64,000 nucleotides of DNA from Veillonella sp. KGMB01456 (GTDB lineage: Bacteria; Bacillota; Negativicutes; Veillonellales; Veillonellaceae). Below are positions 14,241-25,470 of the stretch, piece by piece. Below the pieces are notes generated by a model. That model saw only the letters and a list, made by a program, of their open reading frames with translations. It was not told the DNA's origin and ran no database searches. How positions within the stretch are numbered: the first letter of the stretch is position 1; each line of letters opens with the position of its first letter. The stretch lies in NCBI RefSeq assembly GCF_023051165.1, contig NZ_JALKIG010000001.1:1-64000 (forward strand), read 5' to 3'. The position numbers were made by a program, and so were the translations under genes.

Positions 14241-14281
14241 AAAAACGGACGAATTTGTATTCACGTAAGGAGGAGTTAGTT

Positions 14282-16213
14282 ATGTTAGGTTATTCAATTG
14301 GTATGTTAAAAGAATTCAGTGAGGATGTTCTTGAAAAGTTTGTCGGCAAAGTGGCGAGTGTTTTCGAATATTACTATTATGATTCTGACGATGATTTACC
14401 ACTTATCCCGTTCAAGGACAGCATTTTGTTTGCTACGTTAATGTTCACTATGAAACGTCATAGACTTACTGAAAGCGAGGCAGAGGACTACATTGCAAAA
14501 GAGGTTAAGCTGCCTTCAATTAAAAAGGATTATATTGATTTGAGACAATACTATCCGAACGTATTACCACCTTTAGAGCCTTGTAAAACGGAAGAGCTAT
14601 TTGCCTATATCCTTCTCGCCGAGCCAATTATTCGGTCGAAGTCTGAATACAATGTGGGAAGAAGTATTAATCGCTTGTTTGTTGAATTGTTAAGAGGTCA
14701 AGAGTCTGTATACGACTGGGGGTTTGCACAAGGTCAATTTCTGATTCAGTCACTCTTGAAAAATTCTTCAAAACCACAGGTATCGGGGATTGAAGTGAAA
14801 GAAAGTAACTATGTAGTTACTAAAATTCGGATGTGCATGGTGGGTGAAGCAGCAGACCTTCAACTGGGAAACCTTTTTATTGAAAAACAGGCCAATAGTG
14901 AAGGGGCCGCCGCCGTTATTTGCCCACCGCGTAAAAACCCGCTAACGGAGATTCAATATCGTGGCTATTATTTACAAAGCTCACTGGCTGAGTTGTTTTA
15001 TAGCAGTTCAGACAGAGCTATGCATAACGGAGAATGGCCCTATGTTCTTAAAGCGTTGGATTCACTGCAACCCGGCGGTAAACTCATGGCCCTTACATCG
15101 ACTGAGGCCGCTTCAGATAAACTTTATAGGGCGATTCGTCGTAAACTGCTTGAAGAAGGTTTGGTGGAGAGCGTTATCTTATTATCGAATCGCCTGATTC
15201 CGGGAAATAAGAAAGCCGCTATCCTCTGGATTTTTTCAAAAAAAGATAATCGCTACGTACGCATGATTAATGCCGGTGAAATCAGGACTAAGAGAGAGCC
15301 GGTGTACTATTTATCGGACGAGAATATAAAACAGATTGCCGATCTTTATCGCTATGGTGAAAAATACACGGGAACTATGACTGATGACGAAACTGTCATT
15401 GAAGATATAGTGAGGGATGTAGCTGTTGAAGACCTCTTGAAGGCCCCTATGTCTCATAGACGGCACCATCGTTTTGATGACGAAGAAATTGTTAACGTAT
15501 GGAATTTAGGCCGGGATGAAGGGCCGCAATGTGATTTGGCGCCGGATCGATACACCAATAGAAACGCTACGGCAACGACTGATACGGAGGAGCTGTTTAA
15601 GGGTCCATCCTATTTCCTCGGCGATGTGTGCAAGATTCGACGTGGCGCCGATGAAAAAGTCGATGAGTCGGATACGGCGGATACCGGTGATTTGGCAAAA
15701 TACATTACGCCGAAACATCTAAATAACCGCACGATTGATGTTTTGAAAATGCCTTCGCTTACGACAGTCACAGTAACGGGAAATCGGAAACCGCTGAAGA
15801 CAAACACAATTATTATGAGTAAATCGGCACCGTTTAAATTCGGCTTTATCGATGATTTGAAGGGGCGCAATGTATATTGCAGCGGCAATACCTATAAGCT
15901 GACCGTTGATGAAAATGAAATAAATTCCATCTATTTGTTTATGTATCTGACTTCGGATTTGGCAAAAGAACAATTGACTCGAATTAGTGAAAACATGAAT
16001 CCTTCATCGCGCACGAAGACAATCAGTATCACCGATTTAGGGGAGGTTCAAATTCCAATCGTGCCTCGTGACGAACAAGAGATGCTTGCTAAGGAATTTT
16101 TGAAAATGGCAGCTGAAGAAGAAAACATTCAAAGGCAATTAGATACGATTTCAGAAGGCAAAAAGGCACTCATTGAGAACGCGATGGCTAAAGCAGAACA
16201 AGAGAATAAATAG
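14282..16213 (+). CDS. Degenerate type I methylase (HsdM-like) fused to an HsdS-like specificity domain
   Basis: About 643 residues. The middle part (about 170-350) has the N6-adenine methylase fold of HsdM (VYDWGFAQGQFLI, LKALDSLQPGGKLMALTS, LIPGNKKAAILWIFSKK). The catalytic NPPY/F motif reads ICPPRKNPL, and the AdoMet motif I is not evident, so methylation is doubtful. From about 440 on it resembles a type I target-recognition domain (FLGDVCKIRRGA, then TKTISITDLGEVQIPIVPRD) with a closing coiled coil. No hsdR partner is adjacent. ATG 14282 follows AAGGAGGAG. It may be a DNA-binding pseudo-methylase. Confidence 0.75.
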   Translation: MLGYSIGMLKEFSEDVLEKFVGKVASVFEYYYYDSDDDLPLIPFKDSILFATLMFTMKRHRLTESEAEDYIAKEVKLPSIKKDYIDLRQYYPNVLPPLEPCKTEELFAYILLAEPIIRSKSEYNVGRSINRLFVELLRGQESVYDWGFAQGQFLIQSLLKNSSKPQVSGIEVKESNYVVTKIRMCMVGEAADLQLGNLFIEKQANSEGAAAVICPPRKNPLTEIQYRGYYLQSSLAELFYSSSDRAMHNGEWPYVLKALDSLQPGGKLMALTSTEAASDKLYRAIRRKLLEEGLVESVILLSNRLIPGNKKAAILWIFSKKDNRYVRMINAGEIRTKREPVYYLSDENIKQIADLYRYGEKYTGTMTDDETVIEDIVRDVAVEDLLKAPMSHRRHHRFDDEEIVNVWNLGRDEGPQCDLAPDRYTNRNATATTDTEELFKGPSYFLGDVCKIRRGADEKVDESDTADTGDLAKYITPKHLNNRTIDVLKMPSLTTVTVTGNRKPLKTNTIIMSKSAPFKFGFIDDLKGRNVYCSGNTYKLTVDENEINSIYLFMYLTSDLAKEQLTRISENMNPSSRTKTISITDLGEVQIPIVPRDEQEMLAKEFLKMAAEEENIQRQLDTISEGKKALIENAMAKAEQENK

Positions 16214-16239
16214 GATTTTGTATAGTGAGGAGGATGTGT

Positions 16240-16602
16240 ATGTTTACGAAAAAAAGCATTTTTTACGACCCAATCGAAGACGGCACCGCCGAAATTTTAC
16301 GTATCAATGCGGATGGCAGCTATAACGTCATATCGGTTAATGTTTTTTACAGCATCGGTGGCGTTGCGCCGGGGTATTTGGAATTTAGAGAACGGGCGGA
16401 AGGCATGGTATTTGAAGACGTAACCATTGGTGAACGAAACTATGGCATGTGGATGCCTATCGGCAAAACGGCCTATAACGAAAAGGCCTCAAAGCTGCTT
16501 GGCAAACCGGTGCAAGGCAATGTGTATATCATTCGCACCGACAGCTATAGAGAATTTCTGGAAGACGAGGATATGGAATATATCCAAAAGGTGCTTGGTT
16601 AA
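16240..16602 (+). CDS. Small DUF3846-like protein, paralogue A
   Basis: 120 residues, not firmly recognised. The C-terminal third (NEKASKLLGKPVQGNVYIIRT) matches the same region of two downstream genes (17142-17555 and 17732-18157), so the three form a local family. The pattern resembles DUF3846 proteins of phages and plasmids. ATG 16240 follows GAGGAGG. The gene begins 26 bases after the pseudo-methylase stop, suggesting co-transcription. Confidence 0.6.
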   Translation: MFTKKSIFYDPIEDGTAEILRINADGSYNVISVNVFYSIGGVAPGYLEFRERAEGMVFEDVTIGERNYGMWMPIGKTAYNEKASKLLGKPVQGNVYIIRTDSYREFLEDEDMEYIQKVLG

Positions 16603-16629
16603 TCAGGCCTGCCGGCGGATATATACGCG

Positions 16630-16730
16630 AAGAGGCATATACGAAGATGCATACATGAAGAGGCATATAGAAAGATGTATAGATGAAGTGGCATATAGAA
16701 AGATGTATAGATGAAGAGGCCTATGCTGAG
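16630..16730. repeat. 28-bp tandem repeat, 3.5 units
   Basis: Units begin at 16630, 16658 and 16686 with a partial fourth at 16714; units 2 and 3 differ at one base. Each contains AAG(A/T)GGCATATA and ends AGATG or ACATG. The unit length is not a multiple of three, so a conserved peptide is unlikely. Confidence 0.85.
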
Positions 16731-16808
16731 TTAAGGGGGATACTATGTTTCGCAAAGACTTTTATCGAAGGCAGTCGAGGCCTTCATTATGAAGACGAAG
16801 AGGAGTAC

Positions 16809-17111
16809 ATGAAGATGCATAAAGTTATGTTGCCGTATAAAAAAGACGGGCGCGTGGTGGCATCCATTCGCGGGGAAATGCGCGGGAGCATGACCTTGCG
16901 TGATGAAAAAGGCAAGGTGTTGGCCCGTTATAGCTTGGTTAATAATTCTACGAAGGTTGTGAATGGTAAAAGCCTTGGTAGGGGCAATTGGTTGGCACAA
17001 CTTTTAGTGGAGTATGTAGCGAGTTTGTCCTGTGAAAAAACTGCTGTGGCTGAGGTTGATAGCGGGAATGAGCCGGAGACGTTGAATAAAATGGCCGAAT
17101 CGGATAATTAG
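16809..17111 (+). CDS. Hypothetical protein in the paralogue cluster
   Basis: About 100 residues if begun at ATG 16809, which follows GAGGAG; the frame stays open upstream into the 28-bp repeats, where coding is unlikely. Visible segments are KKDGRVVASIRGEMRGSMTL and LVNNSTKVVNGKSLGRGNWL; nothing was recognised. It lacks the shared motif of its neighbours. Confidence 0.4.
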   Translation: MKMHKVMLPYKKDGRVVASIRGEMRGSMTLRDEKGKVLARYSLVNNSTKVVNGKSLGRGNWLAQLLVEYVASLSCEKTAVAEVDSGNEPETLNKMAESDN

Positions 17112-17141
17112 TTGTCGTGTGGGAGTAAGGAGCGTGTTTTT

Positions 17142-17555
17142 ATGAAAAAATATAAAGAACTGGAGATTGGGCGTGATGGTGTATCTCGATTTGTAGAAGT
17201 AGAGGCGGGGCCCTATGGTCAAGACGGAATAGCCGGTGCCGCACGACATAGACACTTCTGTAGTATACGGAAAATTAAAGTTAAAAATTTAGGCAAGAAT
17301 TTTTATATCGTTGTAAATGGTCACAACACGATTAATCCGTTTAATAAAGACCCCCGGAAGGGATTTACTAAAGCCGATGATGCCGAACTTTTCAATGAAA
17401 ATGCCTCAAAGCTTGCGGAACGAAATATATTCGGAAATGCCTATGTCGTGAAATTTGATAATGGCACTTACCGTGCCCTCTATGATGAGGATATTAGGGA
17501 GTTGAAAAAAGTATATCCATTTCCGATTAAAGGGGACGATGAGGAGCCAAAATAG
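17142..17555 (+). CDS. Small DUF3846-like protein, paralogue B
   Basis: 137 residues. The C-terminal motif NENASKLAERNIFGNAYVVK matches paralogues A and C, and its N-terminus (YKELEIGRDGVSRFVEVE) matches paralogue C (DKVLKIGYDGHSEFITIE). ATG 17142 is chosen because an AAGGAG site precedes it; the frame also offers a TTG at 17112. A strong terminator follows. The function is unknown. Confidence 0.65.
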   Translation: MKKYKELEIGRDGVSRFVEVEAGPYGQDGIAGAARHRHFCSIRKIKVKNLGKNFYIVVNGHNTINPFNKDPRKGFTKADDAELFNENASKLAERNIFGNAYVVKFDNGTYRALYDEDIRELKKVYPFPIKGDDEEPK

Positions 17556-17627
17556 CACCAAGCGAGCCATATGAAATTAGTAAGAAAAAGCAGGTAAAAT
17601 ACCCGAAAAATTAGCTCATAAAAGAGG

Positions 17628-17673
17628 AAACGCATTACATGTAGTCGAATATTATAAGGTAATGCGTTTTTTT
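17628..17673 (+). terminator. Terminator after paralogue B
   Basis: AAACGCATTAC ... GTAATGCG followed by seven T's, a textbook rho-independent terminator ending the unit that begins at the pseudo-methylase. Confidence 0.8.
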
Positions 17674-17731
17674 ACAAAACTTATTAGGCTATAGGAGATC
17701 GTTGCTATTTAGGGGATAGAGGACTGCTGCT

Positions 17732-18157
17732 ATGAAACGGGATAAAGTGTTAAAAATCGGGTATGACGGCCATTCTGAATTTATTACCATTGAGACCGAT
17801 AACCATGGTTGGGGCAAGATACTGGATATTTGCAAGCACGAAAGTTTTCACAAAGTCGATATATTTGGGGCCTATCGTCTGGCGGGCTATGTATTTGTGG
17901 TTGATGCTAAAAACTCCATCAAGAGGATGGAAGCTGAATTGATAAATCCCTTCTTTTGCCCGCTTGATGACAACTATTATAATGGCAACGCCAGCATGCT
18001 AATCGGCACGAACATCTACGGCAATGCCTATGTGGTGAAGGCCTATGGGATGAAGTACGGGGCTTTTAGCAAAAAAGATATGGGGGATCTGGCAAGGAAA
18101 TATCCGTTTACCATTGATAATTTGAGTGAAATGGGGATTACGCCGAAGGGGCGTTAA
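17732..18157 (+). CDS. Small DUF3846-like protein, paralogue C
   Basis: 141 residues. NGNASMLIGTNIYGNAYVVK aligns with paralogue B, as do the N-terminal 20 residues. It lies beyond the terminator, so it probably has its own promoter. The start ATG has a weak upstream GGGGATAGAGGA. The function is unknown; the local triplication points to diversification. Confidence 0.65.
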   Translation: MKRDKVLKIGYDGHSEFITIETDNHGWGKILDICKHESFHKVDIFGAYRLAGYVFVVDAKNSIKRMEAELINPFFCPLDDNYYNGNASMLIGTNIYGNAYVVKAYGMKYGAFSKKDMGDLARKYPFTIDNLSEMGITPKGR

Positions 18158-19335: not shown

Positions 19336-19974
19336 GTGGCGGACAAAAATACAGTTAATGTTGGATTTGAAAAACAAATATGGGATGCAGCCTGTGTACT
19401 ACGAGGTAATATGGATGCCTCAGAATATAAGGGAGTAGTATTAGGCTTAATCTTTTTAAAATATATTTCAGATAGATTTGAAGATAAACATAAGGCGTTA
19501 GTGGCAGAAGGCGATGGATTTGAGGAAGATATTGACGAATACACTTCAGAAGGTATTTTCTTTGTCCCTAGTGGTGCGCGCTGGAGTGATATAGCTTCTA
19601 AATCTCATACCCCTGAAATTGGTGTAGTTATTGACAATGCAATGCGTGCTATTGAGAAGGAAAATAAACGACTTAAAGACATTTTACCTAAAAACTTTGC
19701 TCGCCCAGAATTAGATAAAGGCAGACTTGGCAATGTTGTTGATCTATTTTCTAATATTAAGATGATTGAGCATGGCAGTGAAAAGGATATACTTGGACGT
19801 ACGTATGAATATTGCTTATCAATGTTTGCGGAACAAGAAGGTAAACGAGGCGGTGAGTTTTTCACACCTTCGTGCATTGTAAGAACCTTAGTTGAGATTT
19901 TACAACCGTATAAAGGGCGAGTATATGAGCAAAGATGCTTGGGATTGATACAATTTAAAGAAAGGTACGCATAG
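19336..19974 (+). pseudogene. hsdM: Type I restriction methylase subunit HsdM, truncated
   Basis: The first 200 or so residues are an authentic HsdM N-terminus (NMDASEYKGVVLGLIFLKYI, then GGEFFTPSCIVRTLVEILQ). The match stops at PYKGRVYE, where the family continues with the AdoMet-binding DP-x-CGSGG motif; a short unrelated tail (QRCLGLIQFKERYA) follows. About 300 residues, including all catalytic motifs, are missing, and no hsdS or hsdR is present. The start is GTG 19336 with AAAGGAG upstream. The breakpoint near 19930 marks the left edge of foreign DNA or a deletion. Confidence 0.85.
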
Positions 19975-20134: not shown

Positions 20135-22405
20135 TTATGCTGGATCCATCATCATGTCATAATGCTGGGACTGTTCCATTACGTCGAATATGAGCTTGAA
20201 CGTATACCTAATTTGTTCAACGCTTTCTGTATCTTCCACGTAGTCCAGCCCGTCATTAAATCGTTGATTTTCGGCTCCTATATATCTTAAAAGTGCATTC
20301 AGTAAATGTTGTTTTTCTCTGTTTTCAGTTCCGTCTGGAGCGATTTCCAGGAAGTCATCTTTTCGTTTCATGATACGGTCGGCCAAAGTTTGACCTTCGT
20401 AACCGCTGATTTGGATAAAGTAGTATTCTAGAATTTGTCTGGCTGTACGCATAATTACAGTAGAAGATGTTGCTTCCTTGTATTCTTTCCATAACGCCGC
20501 GTATGCATCACGCACTGTTGTAAAGTTTTTTTCGATTGCAGGCGTATCACTATTGACATCTTGTTTGACACACAGTTTAACTGTTGAGACATTTCGTTTC
20601 TTTTGAATGAGATAAAAATTTACGCAATGATAGTATTTGAGGCGGTTATATGAAACTTCCTTATGGAAAAAGGCATTATGCGTCAGAATAAAAATTTGTT
20701 TTATATAGCGCGGTGTATCTTGCTTTGAAGCAGAACCGTTATTAAAACAAATGGAAATCATTTCACGGATGATGGCACTGACAATAAAAAGTGACGAACT
20801 ATCCATGCTTGAAACTGGATCATCAATGACAACGATGCGGTCTTTAAAATCACTGTCAGCATGTTCCCTTCCTTTCACTTTGTGATAAAAATAAAGAAAT
20901 GCAATGAAATTGCGTTCACCTTCACTTAAGCCATGCGCCGGGGAGCCATCGTCCCGGATAATTTCATATTTGGCAGAATCGGGTTTATTCTTTTGAAGCC
21001 GAAACCCTTGAAACCCTGAATCCAGCAGCTCCTTATTGATAGCTTCCATTGTCGAATCAACATTGACAATTTGACTATTCAGTTCGGCAATCTGTGATTT
21101 TAAAGAAAGGCCTTTTTGGGTAATGTCATTTTGTTCTTTTGTTAATTTTGAAATTTCTGCATTCACATTTTTTAGACTGGTGCGGTAAGCATCAAGTTCT
21201 TTTTTAGATAAGAAAGCCATATGCTGCCAGACTGATTTTTTACACTCGGCCTGTTTTTCCTGTAAAGAAGCAATGATGTCGTTGTTAGCTTGGATAGCGG
21301 CATTGAATTTTTTTATTAAAGCATTTAGGCTATCAATAAGTTCAGATGTATCTTCTAAGTAAATAGGGCGTGAAGGTGCATCTAATTTCTCCTGTATGAG
21401 ACCTTGGTTAATCTGTACAGTCTTTTTCAGGTTAATAAGCTGTTCTTTGTATACTGTGAAATCAATGTGAGAAAACTCGCAGTTTAGATTATTATCGAAC
21501 TGGGTTAATAATCGAGCAAATGTATTATTGTAAGACTGTTGGAAATTTTCTAGTGAATCGATATCAGACTTATATTCTTCATCAAAACAGGCGGCAAGCT
21601 GTTTTGCAAAATCAGCAGGAAGAAGCTGATGACAATAAGGGCAATGGCCATCTGTTTTTTCTGCAAATAACTCGTGACCTTGTTTGACCCAGTCCGTTGC
21701 ACCTACCGCTTGTATGAATTTGGCAAAAGGAGTATCGGCACTGCTGATGATAGGTTGGGAAAGTAATACCGAATCCAGAGGTTCTTCAGGTAACTCCTTA
21801 CATCCTTCTTTTAAAAGAGGATAAGATTTGGCGCTTTTATCAAATGCAGTTTCATATAAAGCTTTCAGTACCTTGAAATCTTGCTCCTTAGGTTCCTTGA
21901 TGGAGAGCAATTCATCGGTGAATACGGATTTTTTTCCTCTTTTACCTGCAAGTGCCTTTGCAAAGCGGTTGCGGATATCTGCTGTGGTTTCCCAGCAAGA
22001 GGACTCCAATGCGATTCTTAATGCGGGAAGCTTTCCCTTTGCATCTGTAAGTGCATTTTTCTTTTCTTGATACTGCACTGCAAGTTTGTTGCGTTCTTCA
22101 TTTAATTCGGCCACTTTATTCTGAATTTCGATATTTCCTTCGTTCAAACTGAAAACGCCAGGCATAGCAGCATCTTCCTTAATGTTTTTTGCGATGAAGT
22201 CCTGATCATAGACCAGAACCTCAAAGTTGCTGATGTCCGGGGTAATTCCGGATTTTGAACGAATAAGACGGGCAATCGTGGATTTTCCGCTGCCATTTTT
22301 ACCGTAGAAATAGTTAATGAGCGTAGGGTTTATTGTAACGCCATGAAACGTATTGTCGTCGAGAAAAATTGCTTTTATTGCGCCTTGCATTTTCTTTTCT
22401 GTCAT
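20135..22405 (-). CDS. RloC-like AAA ATPase with zinc hook, putative anticodon nuclease
   Basis: 756 residues of the AAA_13/RloC type. Walker A is FYGKNGSGKST (about 33-43), a long coiled coil is interrupted by a zinc hook CPYC (255-258), the ABC signature is LSEGERNF (493-500), Walker B is RIVVIDDPVSSMD (523-535), and LTHN (574-577) is the H-loop. RloC cuts tRNA anticodon loops after DNA damage or phage attack. The tail has R656-x3-E660 (RQILE) and H748, which could be the Arg-Glu-His nuclease triad; that assignment is inferred. It is the last gene of a minus-strand operon whose other three products share a motif, and it sits next to a broken hsd locus, a typical setting for rlo genes. Confidence 0.82.
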   Translation of the reverse strand: MTEKKMQGAIKAIFLDDNTFHGVTINPTLINYFYGKNGSGKSTIARLIRSKSGITPDISNFEVLVYDQDFIAKNIKEDAAMPGVFSLNEGNIEIQNKVAELNEERNKLAVQYQEKKNALTDAKGKLPALRIALESSCWETTADIRNRFAKALAGKRGKKSVFTDELLSIKEPKEQDFKVLKALYETAFDKSAKSYPLLKEGCKELPEEPLDSVLLSQPIISSADTPFAKFIQAVGATDWVKQGHELFAEKTDGHCPYCHQLLPADFAKQLAACFDEEYKSDIDSLENFQQSYNNTFARLLTQFDNNLNCEFSHIDFTVYKEQLINLKKTVQINQGLIQEKLDAPSRPIYLEDTSELIDSLNALIKKFNAAIQANNDIIASLQEKQAECKKSVWQHMAFLSKKELDAYRTSLKNVNAEISKLTKEQNDITQKGLSLKSQIAELNSQIVNVDSTMEAINKELLDSGFQGFRLQKNKPDSAKYEIIRDDGSPAHGLSEGERNFIAFLYFYHKVKGREHADSDFKDRIVVIDDPVSSMDSSSLFIVSAIIREMISICFNNGSASKQDTPRYIKQIFILTHNAFFHKEVSYNRLKYYHCVNFYLIQKKRNVSTVKLCVKQDVNSDTPAIEKNFTTVRDAYAALWKEYKEATSSTVIMRTARQILEYYFIQISGYEGQTLADRIMKRKDDFLEIAPDGTENREKQHLLNALLRYIGAENQRFNDGLDYVEDTESVEQIRYTFKLIFDVMEQSQHYDMMMDPA

Positions 22406-22472: not shown

Positions 22473-23093
22473 TTAAATCGGGAACCCCAATTCACGGAAT
22501 TCAGAAATCAAATTGACCTTTTTGACAGTCCAGTGTGTCCGATTGAGTTCACAGAAGCCTTTATGCCCATATATATCAAAATTCAGCAAGTTCTCGTTTA
22601 ATATCTGCTGACTGAATTTCCAAAGAATGGATGGTTTGATGATAATTCCTTCATGGCGTACCTTTATTTTCAGGATGTAGCCGAACCCCGCTTGCTGATC
22701 CGGAGCGGCTAAACCATATCCTTCGTTTTCATGTGCAAAAATAGTAGGAAAGGTTTGAAGCGACTGAATTGCATCATCTGATAGAAGTGCGAACATTTTT
22801 TTTACGTCATCATCAATATATTCTGTAAGTGCTCTTGATGGTTCTATTGAAAAGCAGATTTCTGGATTTTCGATATCAATCATCCCGTCAACTATTAGAT
22901 TGTAATAATCCGTATTAGGAGTCAGCGTCTGGTTGGGCACGATGGTTGGAATTGTTTTTTGTGTGGCATTTATGATTACATTATCAGCATGCTGAATCAA
23001 CGTGTTTTTTTGTCCTTGCTGTGAGATGGACGGCGTAATTGAAGTCGTCGGCTGAGATATAGTGGTTTTGCTCAGAGTTAAATCATTGGACAA
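22473..23093 (-). CDS. Shared-motif protein 3 of the RloC-like operon
   Basis: 206 residues, function unknown. Residues about 22-42 carry ISQQGQKNTLIQHADNVII, the same motif found in the two genes upstream. The remaining domain (GYGLAAPDQQAGFGYILKIK, then FCELNRTHWTVKKVNLISEF) resembles uncharacterised Firmicute proteins, but I cannot name a family. The start is TTG 23093 with GGAG upstream. The RloC-like gene follows after a 67-base gap. Confidence 0.7.
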   Translation of the reverse strand: MSNDLTLSKTTISQPTTSITPSISQQGQKNTLIQHADNVIINATQKTIPTIVPNQTLTPNTDYYNLIVDGMIDIENPEICFSIEPSRALTEYIDDDVKKMFALLSDDAIQSLQTFPTIFAHENEGYGLAAPDQQAGFGYILKIKVRHEGIIIKPSILWKFSQQILNENLLNFDIYGHKGFCELNRTHWTVKKVNLISEFRELGFPI

Positions 23094-23122
23094 TTAGAAT
23101 CACACTCCACTAATTTTTTTTA

Positions 23123-23749
23123 TTACTTGGGTGTTGGCTCTTTTGCTGGCCAAAGTTCGAGATACCGGTCACGTAATTCTTCGCGGATGCGAATAGAATT
23201 AGGCCTTAATTCTTCACGTAATCTTTCTCCTTCTTCAATGGACTGATTTTTACAGATTAAAAAATCAGGGTTAGAGGGGAGTAGCCGCATATATTTATCA
23301 GAGAGATAGTACAAATATTCATTGAAATTGTTTAACGTATGGCAGACGATTTCCTGTATTTTTTCAGATTCGAAATCTCTCCAATCAAACTGCCATTTAT
23401 TGTAGTTACGTTCAATCAATTCAATACAATGGATATCAAAAGCATCGCCTGTCGGATCGATGTGTATGCAGTATTTCAGAATATTTTTATAAGAATTTTT
23501 AAATTCTGCCAATAATTTTGCATCGTTATTGGAAATTTTTATATCACCAAATATAGTACTAGGGAATGTAGATGAGTTTCTGCCTGGCTTTATATTGATG
23601 TTGACCGTGTCAGCATGCTGTATGACTGTGTTTTTTTCCCCATACTGATTGATGCTTTTATCAGTTACTGCATCAACAGAAACATCTGTTGGCTTTATTT
23701 GGCCCTTAGCTGGGAATTTGTTTGACATCTTAACCGCCCCTTTTGCCAT
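23123..23749 (-). CDS. Shared-motif protein 2 of the RloC-like operon
   Basis: 208 residues (201 if begun at ATG 23728, which has a better AAAGGGG site). SINQYGEKNTVIQHADTVNI lies near residues 30-50; the rest is helical and charged with a Pro/Glu-rich tail. No family is recognised. Its first ATG overlaps the stop of the preceding gene (TGATG), indicating translational coupling. Confidence 0.7.
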   Translation of the reverse strand: MAKGAVKMSNKFPAKGQIKPTDVSVDAVTDKSINQYGEKNTVIQHADTVNINIKPGRNSSTFPSTIFGDIKISNNDAKLLAEFKNSYKNILKYCIHIDPTGDAFDIHCIELIERNYNKWQFDWRDFESEKIQEIVCHTLNNFNEYLYYLSDKYMRLLPSNPDFLICKNQSIEEGERLREELRPNSIRIREELRDRYLELWPAKEPTPK

Positions 23750-24609
23750 CAGATATTTAGCGTATCGACATGAGTGATATGGATGTTTTTTTCACCATGC
23801 TGGTTGACTATAGTCGCATTTTGAATGATTTGTGTTTTTGAATAGTTGTTTTCTTCGGTGGTAGACGAATCGTCGGCTTCATAAGCCTTTTCTGAACTTT
23901 GATTGTTTTCTCCGTCAAGTACAGATGCGGATGCCGACTGATGGGATGTGTTGCTGCAAGTAACTTGCAGCTCCTGTTTAATATCGGCTCCTACACGTCC
24001 CTTATATTCTTTAGGGTTGTCGGGATACCAGGAGTGGTAGGTGTCGGCACCTTTTATATTTTCATTAGAACGATTTATGGCGATATAATGCCAAATGCCC
24101 AAAAGGAGATCAGGAAGATTTATCTCTGTACGGGTTATCAGACTCTTCTTTTCGACCCATTTAGGCCAAATGAAAAATTTTTCATTCGTTGGAATTGAGG
24201 AATCCTCCTGTATCAGCCCGAGTAAATTACGGACTAGTTGTTTGTATGCTGATTCATCAATGAAATCCCGGACAAATTGTACCATTGCGGAAAAAGCTTT
24301 AGAATCCTCTTTCTGGATATCTTCCTTAAAGTTTCTGCGTTTGTCATAATCATTAAACTCAATAAAGAGAATAAAATTGTCTTTACATTGTTTAAAACGG
24401 CTGGCATTGGTCTTAAGGCTGCTGCCTTCTGGTTTAAAATCATTATTTAGGTGATAAATTGAAATAAGCCTCCTGAACAGTTCTGGTTCAGAGAGGCTTT
24501 CTTTTTGTCCTTTTGCAAGCTCGGCAGGTGACTTTCTGTGTCTTCGTGCCCTAAGAATCTGGGCAAAGAACGTACCGCCGCAAAGGAAGGGAATAGTTGT
24601 TTTTTCCAT
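23749..24609 (-). CDS. Shared-motif protein 1 of the RloC-like operon
   Basis: 286 residues. The N-terminal part (FLCGGTFFAQILRARRHRKS, then PELFRRLISIYHLNNDF) resembles an uncharacterised family common in Firmicutes that begins with a CGGTFF block. A low-complexity Ser/Glu linker (about 225-255) leads to the C-terminal motif VNQHGEKNIHITHVDTLNI, which ends the protein. In its two neighbours this motif is N-terminal. It is the first gene of the operon, with AGAGGCAA before ATG 24609. Confidence 0.75.
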   Translation of the reverse strand: MEKTTIPFLCGGTFFAQILRARRHRKSPAELAKGQKESLSEPELFRRLISIYHLNNDFKPEGSSLKTNASRFKQCKDNFILFIEFNDYDKRRNFKEDIQKEDSKAFSAMVQFVRDFIDESAYKQLVRNLLGLIQEDSSIPTNEKFFIWPKWVEKKSLITRTEINLPDLLLGIWHYIAINRSNENIKGADTYHSWYPDNPKEYKGRVGADIKQELQVTCSNTSHQSASASVLDGENNQSSEKAYEADDSSTTEENNYSKTQIIQNATIVNQHGEKNIHITHVDTLNI

Positions 24610-24969: not shown

Positions 24970-25470
24970 ATGGCCAATCTACAGACAAACAAACAGAAGC
25001 AATACTACATTCCTCTGGAACTCACGCCAGAAACCGTCATCACCGAGGCGTACAAGGACTGTGAAGTCCGCTGGTCAAAAATCGGTTGCCGTAAGGTACG
25101 TACTGTCCTGATTCCGGCAACTGAAGAACAGTATCGTGAATACATGCGTCCGCTCTGGCGGGAAGATAAGCGCCAGCAGCGGCATGGTGCCGATGAGGTA
25201 TCGGCGGACAAAGTGCGGGATGACTACGAGGTGGAGGTGCCTGATGACTTCAACCTAGAGGAAGAAGTCGTGAAGGAAGAGTTACTGGCAGCACTGCGCC
25301 ATGAACTGGCAGCTCTGCAGGATATCGACCGGACCATCCTGCTGATGATTGCCGATGGTTCTAGCGAAGCGGCGACCGGGAAGGCCGTCGGCTTGAGCCA
25401 GAAAGCGGTGAACAAGCGCAAACACAAGCTGTATGCACTCCTGAAGGAACAACTCAAAGACTTCCGTTAA
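24970..25470 (+). CDS. Sigma-70-like regulatory protein
   Basis: 166 residues. The C-terminal third is a sigma region 4-type helix-turn-helix (LQDIDRTILLMIADGSSEAA, then VGLSQKAVNKRKHKLYALLK). Similar proteins occur in Firmicute mobile elements as transcription activators. It opens the prophage and is followed by a terminator. Translation may be limited by a hairpin over its start. Confidence 0.75.
   Translation: MANLQTNKQKQYYIPLELTPETVITEAYKDCEVRWSKIGCRKVRTVLIPATEEQYREYMRPLWREDKRQQRHGADEVSADKVRDDYEVEVPDDFNLEEEVVKEELLAALRHELAALQDIDRTILLMIADGSSEAATGKAVGLSQKAVNKRKHKLYALLKEQLKDFR

Follow-up and report, generated by a model that had tools for sequence, protein, structure and literature searches.

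What holds together three adjacent genes whose products share one short motif in otherwise dissimilar bodies, and what have they to do with the RloC-like ATPase encoded beside them? These questions are raised by a minus-strand operon in the window, the 64,000-nucleotide stretch of Veillonella sp. KGMB01456 DNA that was analysed. The first-pass annotation had reported three minus-strand open reading frames with a near-identical motif and an ATPase gene downstream, and all four were found at the positions given below. It had also called the bodies of the three proteins unrelated, and A, P3 and B indeed match no significant family in Pfam, PHROGs, NCBIfam or PADLOC. A sequence search of the PDB with the ATPase, A and B as queries gave no usable match.

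Table 1. Positions and parts of the tagged cassette in the window.
Feature	Position	Strand	Description
Gene A	23749-24609	-	286 aa; helical body 1-220, disordered linker, C-terminal tag; homologues in ~75 loci
Tag of A, NQHGEKNIHITHVDTLNI	23752-23805	-	Residues 269-286, the last 18 residues
Gene P3	23123-23749	-	208 aa; N-terminal tag and a domain usually inside A in relatives
Tag of P3, NQYGEKNTVIQHADTVNI	23597-23650	-	Residues 34-51
Gene B	22473-23093	-	206 aa, TTG start; N-terminal tag, linker, predicted PUA-like domain ~57-206
Tag of B, SQQGQKNTLIQHADNVII	22971-23024	-	Residues 24-41
RloC-like ABC-ATPase	20135-22405	-	756 aa; AAA_13 and PADLOC PDC-S06 matches
ATPase motifs			Walker A, CxxC zinc hook C255/C258, ABC signature, Walker B, H-loop
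ATPase C-terminus			R656-x3-E660 and H748

The motif that A, P3 and B have in common in the window is a tag of 18 residues. Its pattern (CARNNNGGNSARAARAAYNNNNNNATHNNNCAYNNNGAY), when back-translated, has exactly three occurrences in the genome (2.47 Mb), all of them in this operon, and the reversed control pattern has none there. The linked recurrence that the first-pass annotation had expected a motif profile to find was seen among 299 genomes of the phylum, where a tag profile gave nine matches at E < 0.003, none of them outside the four genomes in which the system occurs. This profile contained the tags of the window and of related loci and their recovery was expected; what counts is that no other sequence scores as highly. 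Together with the permutations within loci described below, the genome pattern count and the 299-genome profile exclude a chance origin of the tags, and confirm that the tag is a real feature linked to this operon rather than the random, unlinked occurrence that had been entertained at first.

The placing of the tag is constant. In 62 of the 63 distinct loci that we compared, the A tag lies within 10 residues of the C-terminus (median 3), and that of B lies near the N-terminus, again in 62 of 63; the tag profiles used for this count were built from a subset of the counted loci. AlphaFold models put both tags in disordered tails (residues 224-286 of A and 1-53 of B, pLDDT < 50), so that the tag is not part of one ordinary folded domain shared by these proteins, a reading that the first-pass annotation had left room for and which is thereby ruled out.

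Relatives were sought with a profile of B, because A varies too much for its profile to serve in pattern scans, and were found on 29 viral contigs and at 42 loci in species genomes, the latter mostly of Clostridia, Negativicutes and Bacilli, with two in Corynebacterium. Firmicutes, with their prophages, account for most of the 63 distinct B sequences, the others being from Corynebacterium and a single Lactococcus plasmid. A stands immediately upstream of B in almost all loci, and 74 A-B pairs were extracted, 63 of them with a distinct B. A-B is the conserved core pair in relatives, and the three-protein set of the first-pass annotation holds for the three tagged genes of the window, but not as the core of the family, in which P3 is a domain inside A. 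This domain is inserted in A between the body and the C-terminal tag in L021, L038, L045 and L065, and lies within A, but behind a different N-terminal domain, in L046, L077, L080, L081 and L084. Stand-alone P3 was seen twice (in the window and in L024), each time with its own N-terminal tag, of the type found at that locus.

The tags diverge strongly between loci yet match within each locus, as may be seen from the A/B tags of L011 (NQSGSGVNIGQATNVII / EQSGQGTNIGLAQNVHN), L012 (QNGDGNVVMPNYGTITI / QDGNENVMVPNYGTVNI), L045 (QTNIGHSVSKTYNIKDSTV / QTNIGNQVIKTYNIQDSNV) and L073 (NQRAEKIVNIEHVEHLQI / NQQAEKIVNVNRADSIT). Over 29 loci, non-redundant at 70% identity of the B body, local A/B tag scores averaged 51.5 for a locus's own pair versus 31.3 between loci, and the maximum in 100,000 permutations of the A/B pairing was 41.2. 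The own score exceeded the mean of distant loci (B bodies < 45% identical) in 28 of 29 cases (Wilcoxon 3.7e-8); the weakest locus in the test was L029, where the predicted start of B falls after the tag. The window A tag places its own B no higher than seventh among the 29, since several other loci have tags of the same type, and the statistical claim of matching rests on the whole locus set, not on the window pair.

Natural variants show what happens when the parts are rearranged. On one metagenome-derived contig (L054), the A and B bodies form a single 395-residue protein from which both tags are gone, which is what would be expected if the tags only join A and B. Elsewhere a further protein carries the local tag: at L086:7907-8992 a Ser/Thr kinase, identified by catalytic motifs read by eye from the sequence, is encoded 3′ of the RloC-like ATPase, and its N-terminus begins QEAEKIYNIEHADNVNI, of the local tag type; the tag may have recruited the kinase as a second effector. 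When such additional tags were scored against 28 loci, their own locus ranked first for the window P3, second for the L086 kinase and third for the L024 P3. An A-B pair on the Lactococcus plasmid pUCCL628C (L103:5266-6718), beside a recombinase, was found independently and stands outside the permutation test; its tags (MNQYANNIYNIEHVENLN / LQQNADRIYNIEQANNVNN) match each other with a score of 53, against 48-49 for the best other. The pair at this plasmid locus is without an ATPase, and is either a remnant or a unit working alone. The homotypic assembly tag suggested by the first-pass annotation thus draws strong support from the matching within loci, from the tagless A-B fusion and from the tagged third parties, and the tags most likely co-assemble A, B and the extra modules into one complex.

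The bodies that the tags would bring together differ in how much can be said of their folds. The model of A is all-helical over residues 1-220 (pLDDT mostly above 80-90), and its tail holds a low-confidence strand-turn-strand at the tag (267-271, 274-278). A fold search of A against the PDB and viral models gave nothing at E < 0.1, and weak all-helical matches, for example to Mcl-1 and AbiV, were judged not meaningful. The model of B is confident over residues 57-206 (pLDDT mostly > 90), with the first 53 residues disordered. In structure comparison, 50 of 50 rows among the matches listed were PUA-like, with EVE proteins, YTH domains, the McrB N-domain, THYN1, DrmAB and the Lon N-domain among them; the best Z was 6.2 over 121 residues, which is below 8, and the Foldseek match was modest (E 0.03). 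Since Z stays under 8 and a Pfam scan of 48 B members gave no EVE, YTH or ASCH match, we call B ‘predicted PUA-like’ and not EVE; it is predicted to belong to the PUA-like superfamily of EVE/YTH modified-base readers.

The ATPase is recognised by AAA_13 in Pfam (E 8e-122) and by PDC-S06 in PADLOC (E 2e-206). Residues G35, G38, K41, S494, E497, D528, D529 and H576, of the Walker A and B, signature and H-loop motifs, are kept in 55/55 ATPases, as are C255 and C258 of the CxxC zinc hook that interrupts the ATPase domain; R656 and E660 are each present in 51/55 of the sequences and H748 in 55/55. These ATPase motifs, the hook and the R-x3-E pair support the RloC-type label given by the first-pass annotation. 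The triad of Geobacillus kaustophilus RloC is R692, E696 and H737 (PMC2610378), and the E-H spacing of the putative triad, compared by residue position, is 88 here versus 41 there.

B is present in 4 of the 299 phylum genomes, and the ATPase, at E < 1e-190, in exactly the same four. In three of these the ATPase lies ~11 kb downstream of A-B on the same strand and in the same operon, with genes read by eye as PLD-type helicase, DUF4391-like, methylase and restriction-type genes in between. In a fifth genome, an RloC that is only distantly related (31% identity) sits within an hsdM-hsdS-RloC-hsdR order (names read by eye), without A or B. Across the 63 distinct loci the ATPase is within reach in 56; those of L046, L051, L075 and L091 came from tblastn searches and are possibly interrupted, and that of L025 is partial. 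The similarity matrices of B and the ATPase correlate (r = 0.71, p = 2e-4). As the ATPase sequence has no recognisable tag, its link to A and B rests on co-inheritance: A-B is co-inherited with this RloC clade.

In the window the cassette lies between a truncated N-terminal fragment of hsdM (19336-19974, +) and phage genes, which begin with an open reading frame at 24970 and continue with a DNA polymerase (by reading), terminase, portal and tail genes. We read this as a position at the edge of a prophage. The first-pass annotation had noticed neither this setting nor the restriction-modification genes in the operons of many relatives. Right next to the cassette the hsdM reading frame stops after ~200 residues, as would be seen if hsdM had been the integration site of the prophage; the other half is outside the window. 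A near-identical copy of the open reading frame at 24970 flanks a P3-like locus in a genome of the same genus (G026), where a 278-residue protein with a P3-like domain (L022:5204-6040), without tag, A or B, occupies the same phage site, as an alternative cassette in a prophage hotspot. In Streptococcus phage Javan105 and in human-gut phages a similar cassette adjoins phage replication genes, and the order in Javan105 is A, B, a VrlI-like HTH gene and a gene deposited as ‘translation-disabling ACNase RloC’.

In many loci the genes directly after A-B-HTH are those of a PLD-type helicase, a DUF4391-like protein and a methylase, or type I hsdM, and RloC comes later; the restriction genes vary among loci, and none is beside the window cassette. 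L018-L020 and L100-L102, where A-B-HTH is followed by a 1077-residue PLD-type helicase, DUF4391-like, methylase, restriction-type helicase and DUF2130-like genes and then RloC, read as long composite defence operons. Elsewhere in the window, an unusual fusion at 14255-16213 (+) combines N6-methylase and type I specificity domains in one 652-residue protein. Between this gene and one for an Mrr-like type IV restriction enzyme, 16225-18157 (+) holds a run of small, related-looking open reading frames (at 16225, 16683, 17112 and 17732), two of them with the residues G-N-A-Y-V-V-K; three of the run were scanned with Pfam and gave no match.

How the tags came to match, and what they do, can be explained in more than one way. 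The shared motif might be a by-product of local DNA duplication at the A-B junction, with no function in binding, as the two tags are close together in the DNA of most loci and those of P3 and B in the window are 72% identical over 61 nt. We regard this as highly improbable: codons at identical A/B tag residues agree in 139 of 284 cases, versus 130 expected from codon usage, so that the matching is at protein level, which speaks against recent duplication, and on this count DNA duplication or gene conversion was rejected as the source of the tags. Moreover, the L024 P3 and L086 kinase tags lie kilobases away, and matching has persisted through deep divergence. A much stronger contender, to which we give a little less than an even chance, is that the tag is a finite docking element, formed by tag-tag beta pairing or a small closed bundle, in a constitutive A-B-(P3) complex that silences RloC until disrupted, with no amyloid-like propagation. 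The same matching within loci would serve this reading, and it fits with the shortness of the tags, with the two low-confidence strands predicted in the A tag, with the tagless L054 fusion, which suggests that simple 1:1 linkage suffices, and with the silencing of PrrC by a partner complex (PMC2610378). Against it stands the likeness of the tag pattern, N/Q-x-G-x-x-N-x-x-I, to known amyloid signalling peptides: BASS3 and the archaeal AEB69175 peptide, both experimentally shown to aggregate as amyloid (PMC8086366), score z 5.3 and z 4.0 against the tags, each above all 300 shuffles, whereas a peptide that failed to form amyloid scores z -0.5. The sigma peptide reaches z 1.7 and is not above all shuffles, and ten tag peptides matched no Pfam model, hence no RHIM, HET-S, Ses_B or NACHT_sigma. 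Amyloid formation by the tags is a lead rather than a result.

Another reading detaches A-B from the ATPase, making the pair an accessory (sensor or regulator) of the linked restriction-modification genes, with RloC a mere fellow traveller in the defence cassette. Restriction or methylase genes do directly follow A-B-HTH in many loci, with RloC farther on, and PUA-like domains are known in modification-dependent restriction enzymes (PMC7897488). Yet it is the RloC clade that is the constant partner, in the same four genomes and in 56 of the 63 loci, while the restriction genes come and go and are missing beside the window cassette, and the distant RloC of the hsdMS-RloC-hsdR locus is without A and B; we find an accessory role of this kind improbable.

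We propose, as the rather more probable account, a prophage module in which an operon-specific tag holds A, B and the add-ons together in a complex that controls an RloC-like anticodon nuclease. The tag, C-terminal on A and N-terminal on B and the add-ons, would probably be a beta-arch or beta-strand element that stacks tag on tag. B, through its predicted PUA-like domain, may be the sensor, probably of a modified base on invading DNA or tRNA (a model-based suggestion of moderate confidence), and A, a helical protein, may serve as scaffold or transducer. Once assembled, the complex of A, B and add-ons would gate the ABC-ATPase/zinc-hook protein, by analogy with PrrC gated by EcoprrI, and the trigger could be a challenge to the linked restriction-modification defence or to the prophage; the C-terminal nuclease would then cut tRNA, leading to translation arrest and protecting the lysogen. 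From the prophage location, the linkage to restriction genes and the PDC-S06 label we infer a possible role in phage defence. A bolder form of this proposal, which we think possible though rather unlikely, is an NLR-free relay of amyloid type, in which the PUA-like reader nucleates tag-templated assembly and so switches on a tRNA-cutting, Rad50-like nuclease, the kinase and P3 having been recruited by gaining the locus-specific tag.

If the module works in this way, a clade of RloC-like proteins gains a conserved partner set, which would make its control directly testable. Matched-tag signalling, so far described for NLR immunity, would be extended to a prophage tRNA-nuclease module, and the locus-matched tags would form a ready set of candidates for orthogonal protein assembly.

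The description of RloC dates from 2008, and no dedicated regulator is named in the RloC literature that we searched; nor did a literature search, which covered subscription journals little, bring up an operon of this kind. The ABC-3C conflict systems likewise set several small partners next to an ABC-ATPase, but A, B and P3 gave no match to any ABC-3C model in Pfam, and an assignment to these systems was rejected. The PADLOC candidate defence gene PDC-S06 covers the ATPase only, and A, B and P3 match nothing in that library. With the EVE/YTH/McrB-N readers (PMC7641849, PMC7897488), B has in common its predicted fold and a restriction-gene context; it differs in having no Pfam EVE/YTH match, in Z values of at most 6.2 and in its N-terminal tag, which is new.

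Closest are the RloC/PrrC anticodon nucleases, which join an ABC-ATPase to a HEPN-type ACNase (PMC2610378, PMC3710099) and of which PrrC is gated by EcoprrI (PrrC/RloC literature). Our ATPase resembles them in its ABC motifs, CxxC zinc hook and conserved C-terminal R-x3-E and H, and its relatives share their operons with restriction genes, type I or type III-like; it departs from them in histidine spacing and in having dedicated, tagged partners, A, B and (P3), which are not in the published descriptions that we found. The tags recall BASS, the amyloid signalling sequences that pair NLRs with Bell effectors (PMC8086366, PMC12261475): both are motifs of 20-30 residues that stand C-terminally in one protein and N-terminally in that of the adjacent gene, in disordered tails and matched within the locus, and the tag pattern is close to BASS3/RHIM-like peptides. 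No NLR (NACHT/NB-ARC STAND ATPase) was found in the window operon and B has no NLR domain; in contrast to BASS pairs, the partner is a predicted PUA-like protein, the associated ATPase is RloC-like, and third and fourth kinds of protein carry the tag. What appears new is the combination of RloC/PrrC logic with a tag pairing like that of amyloid signalling, in a system without an NLR.
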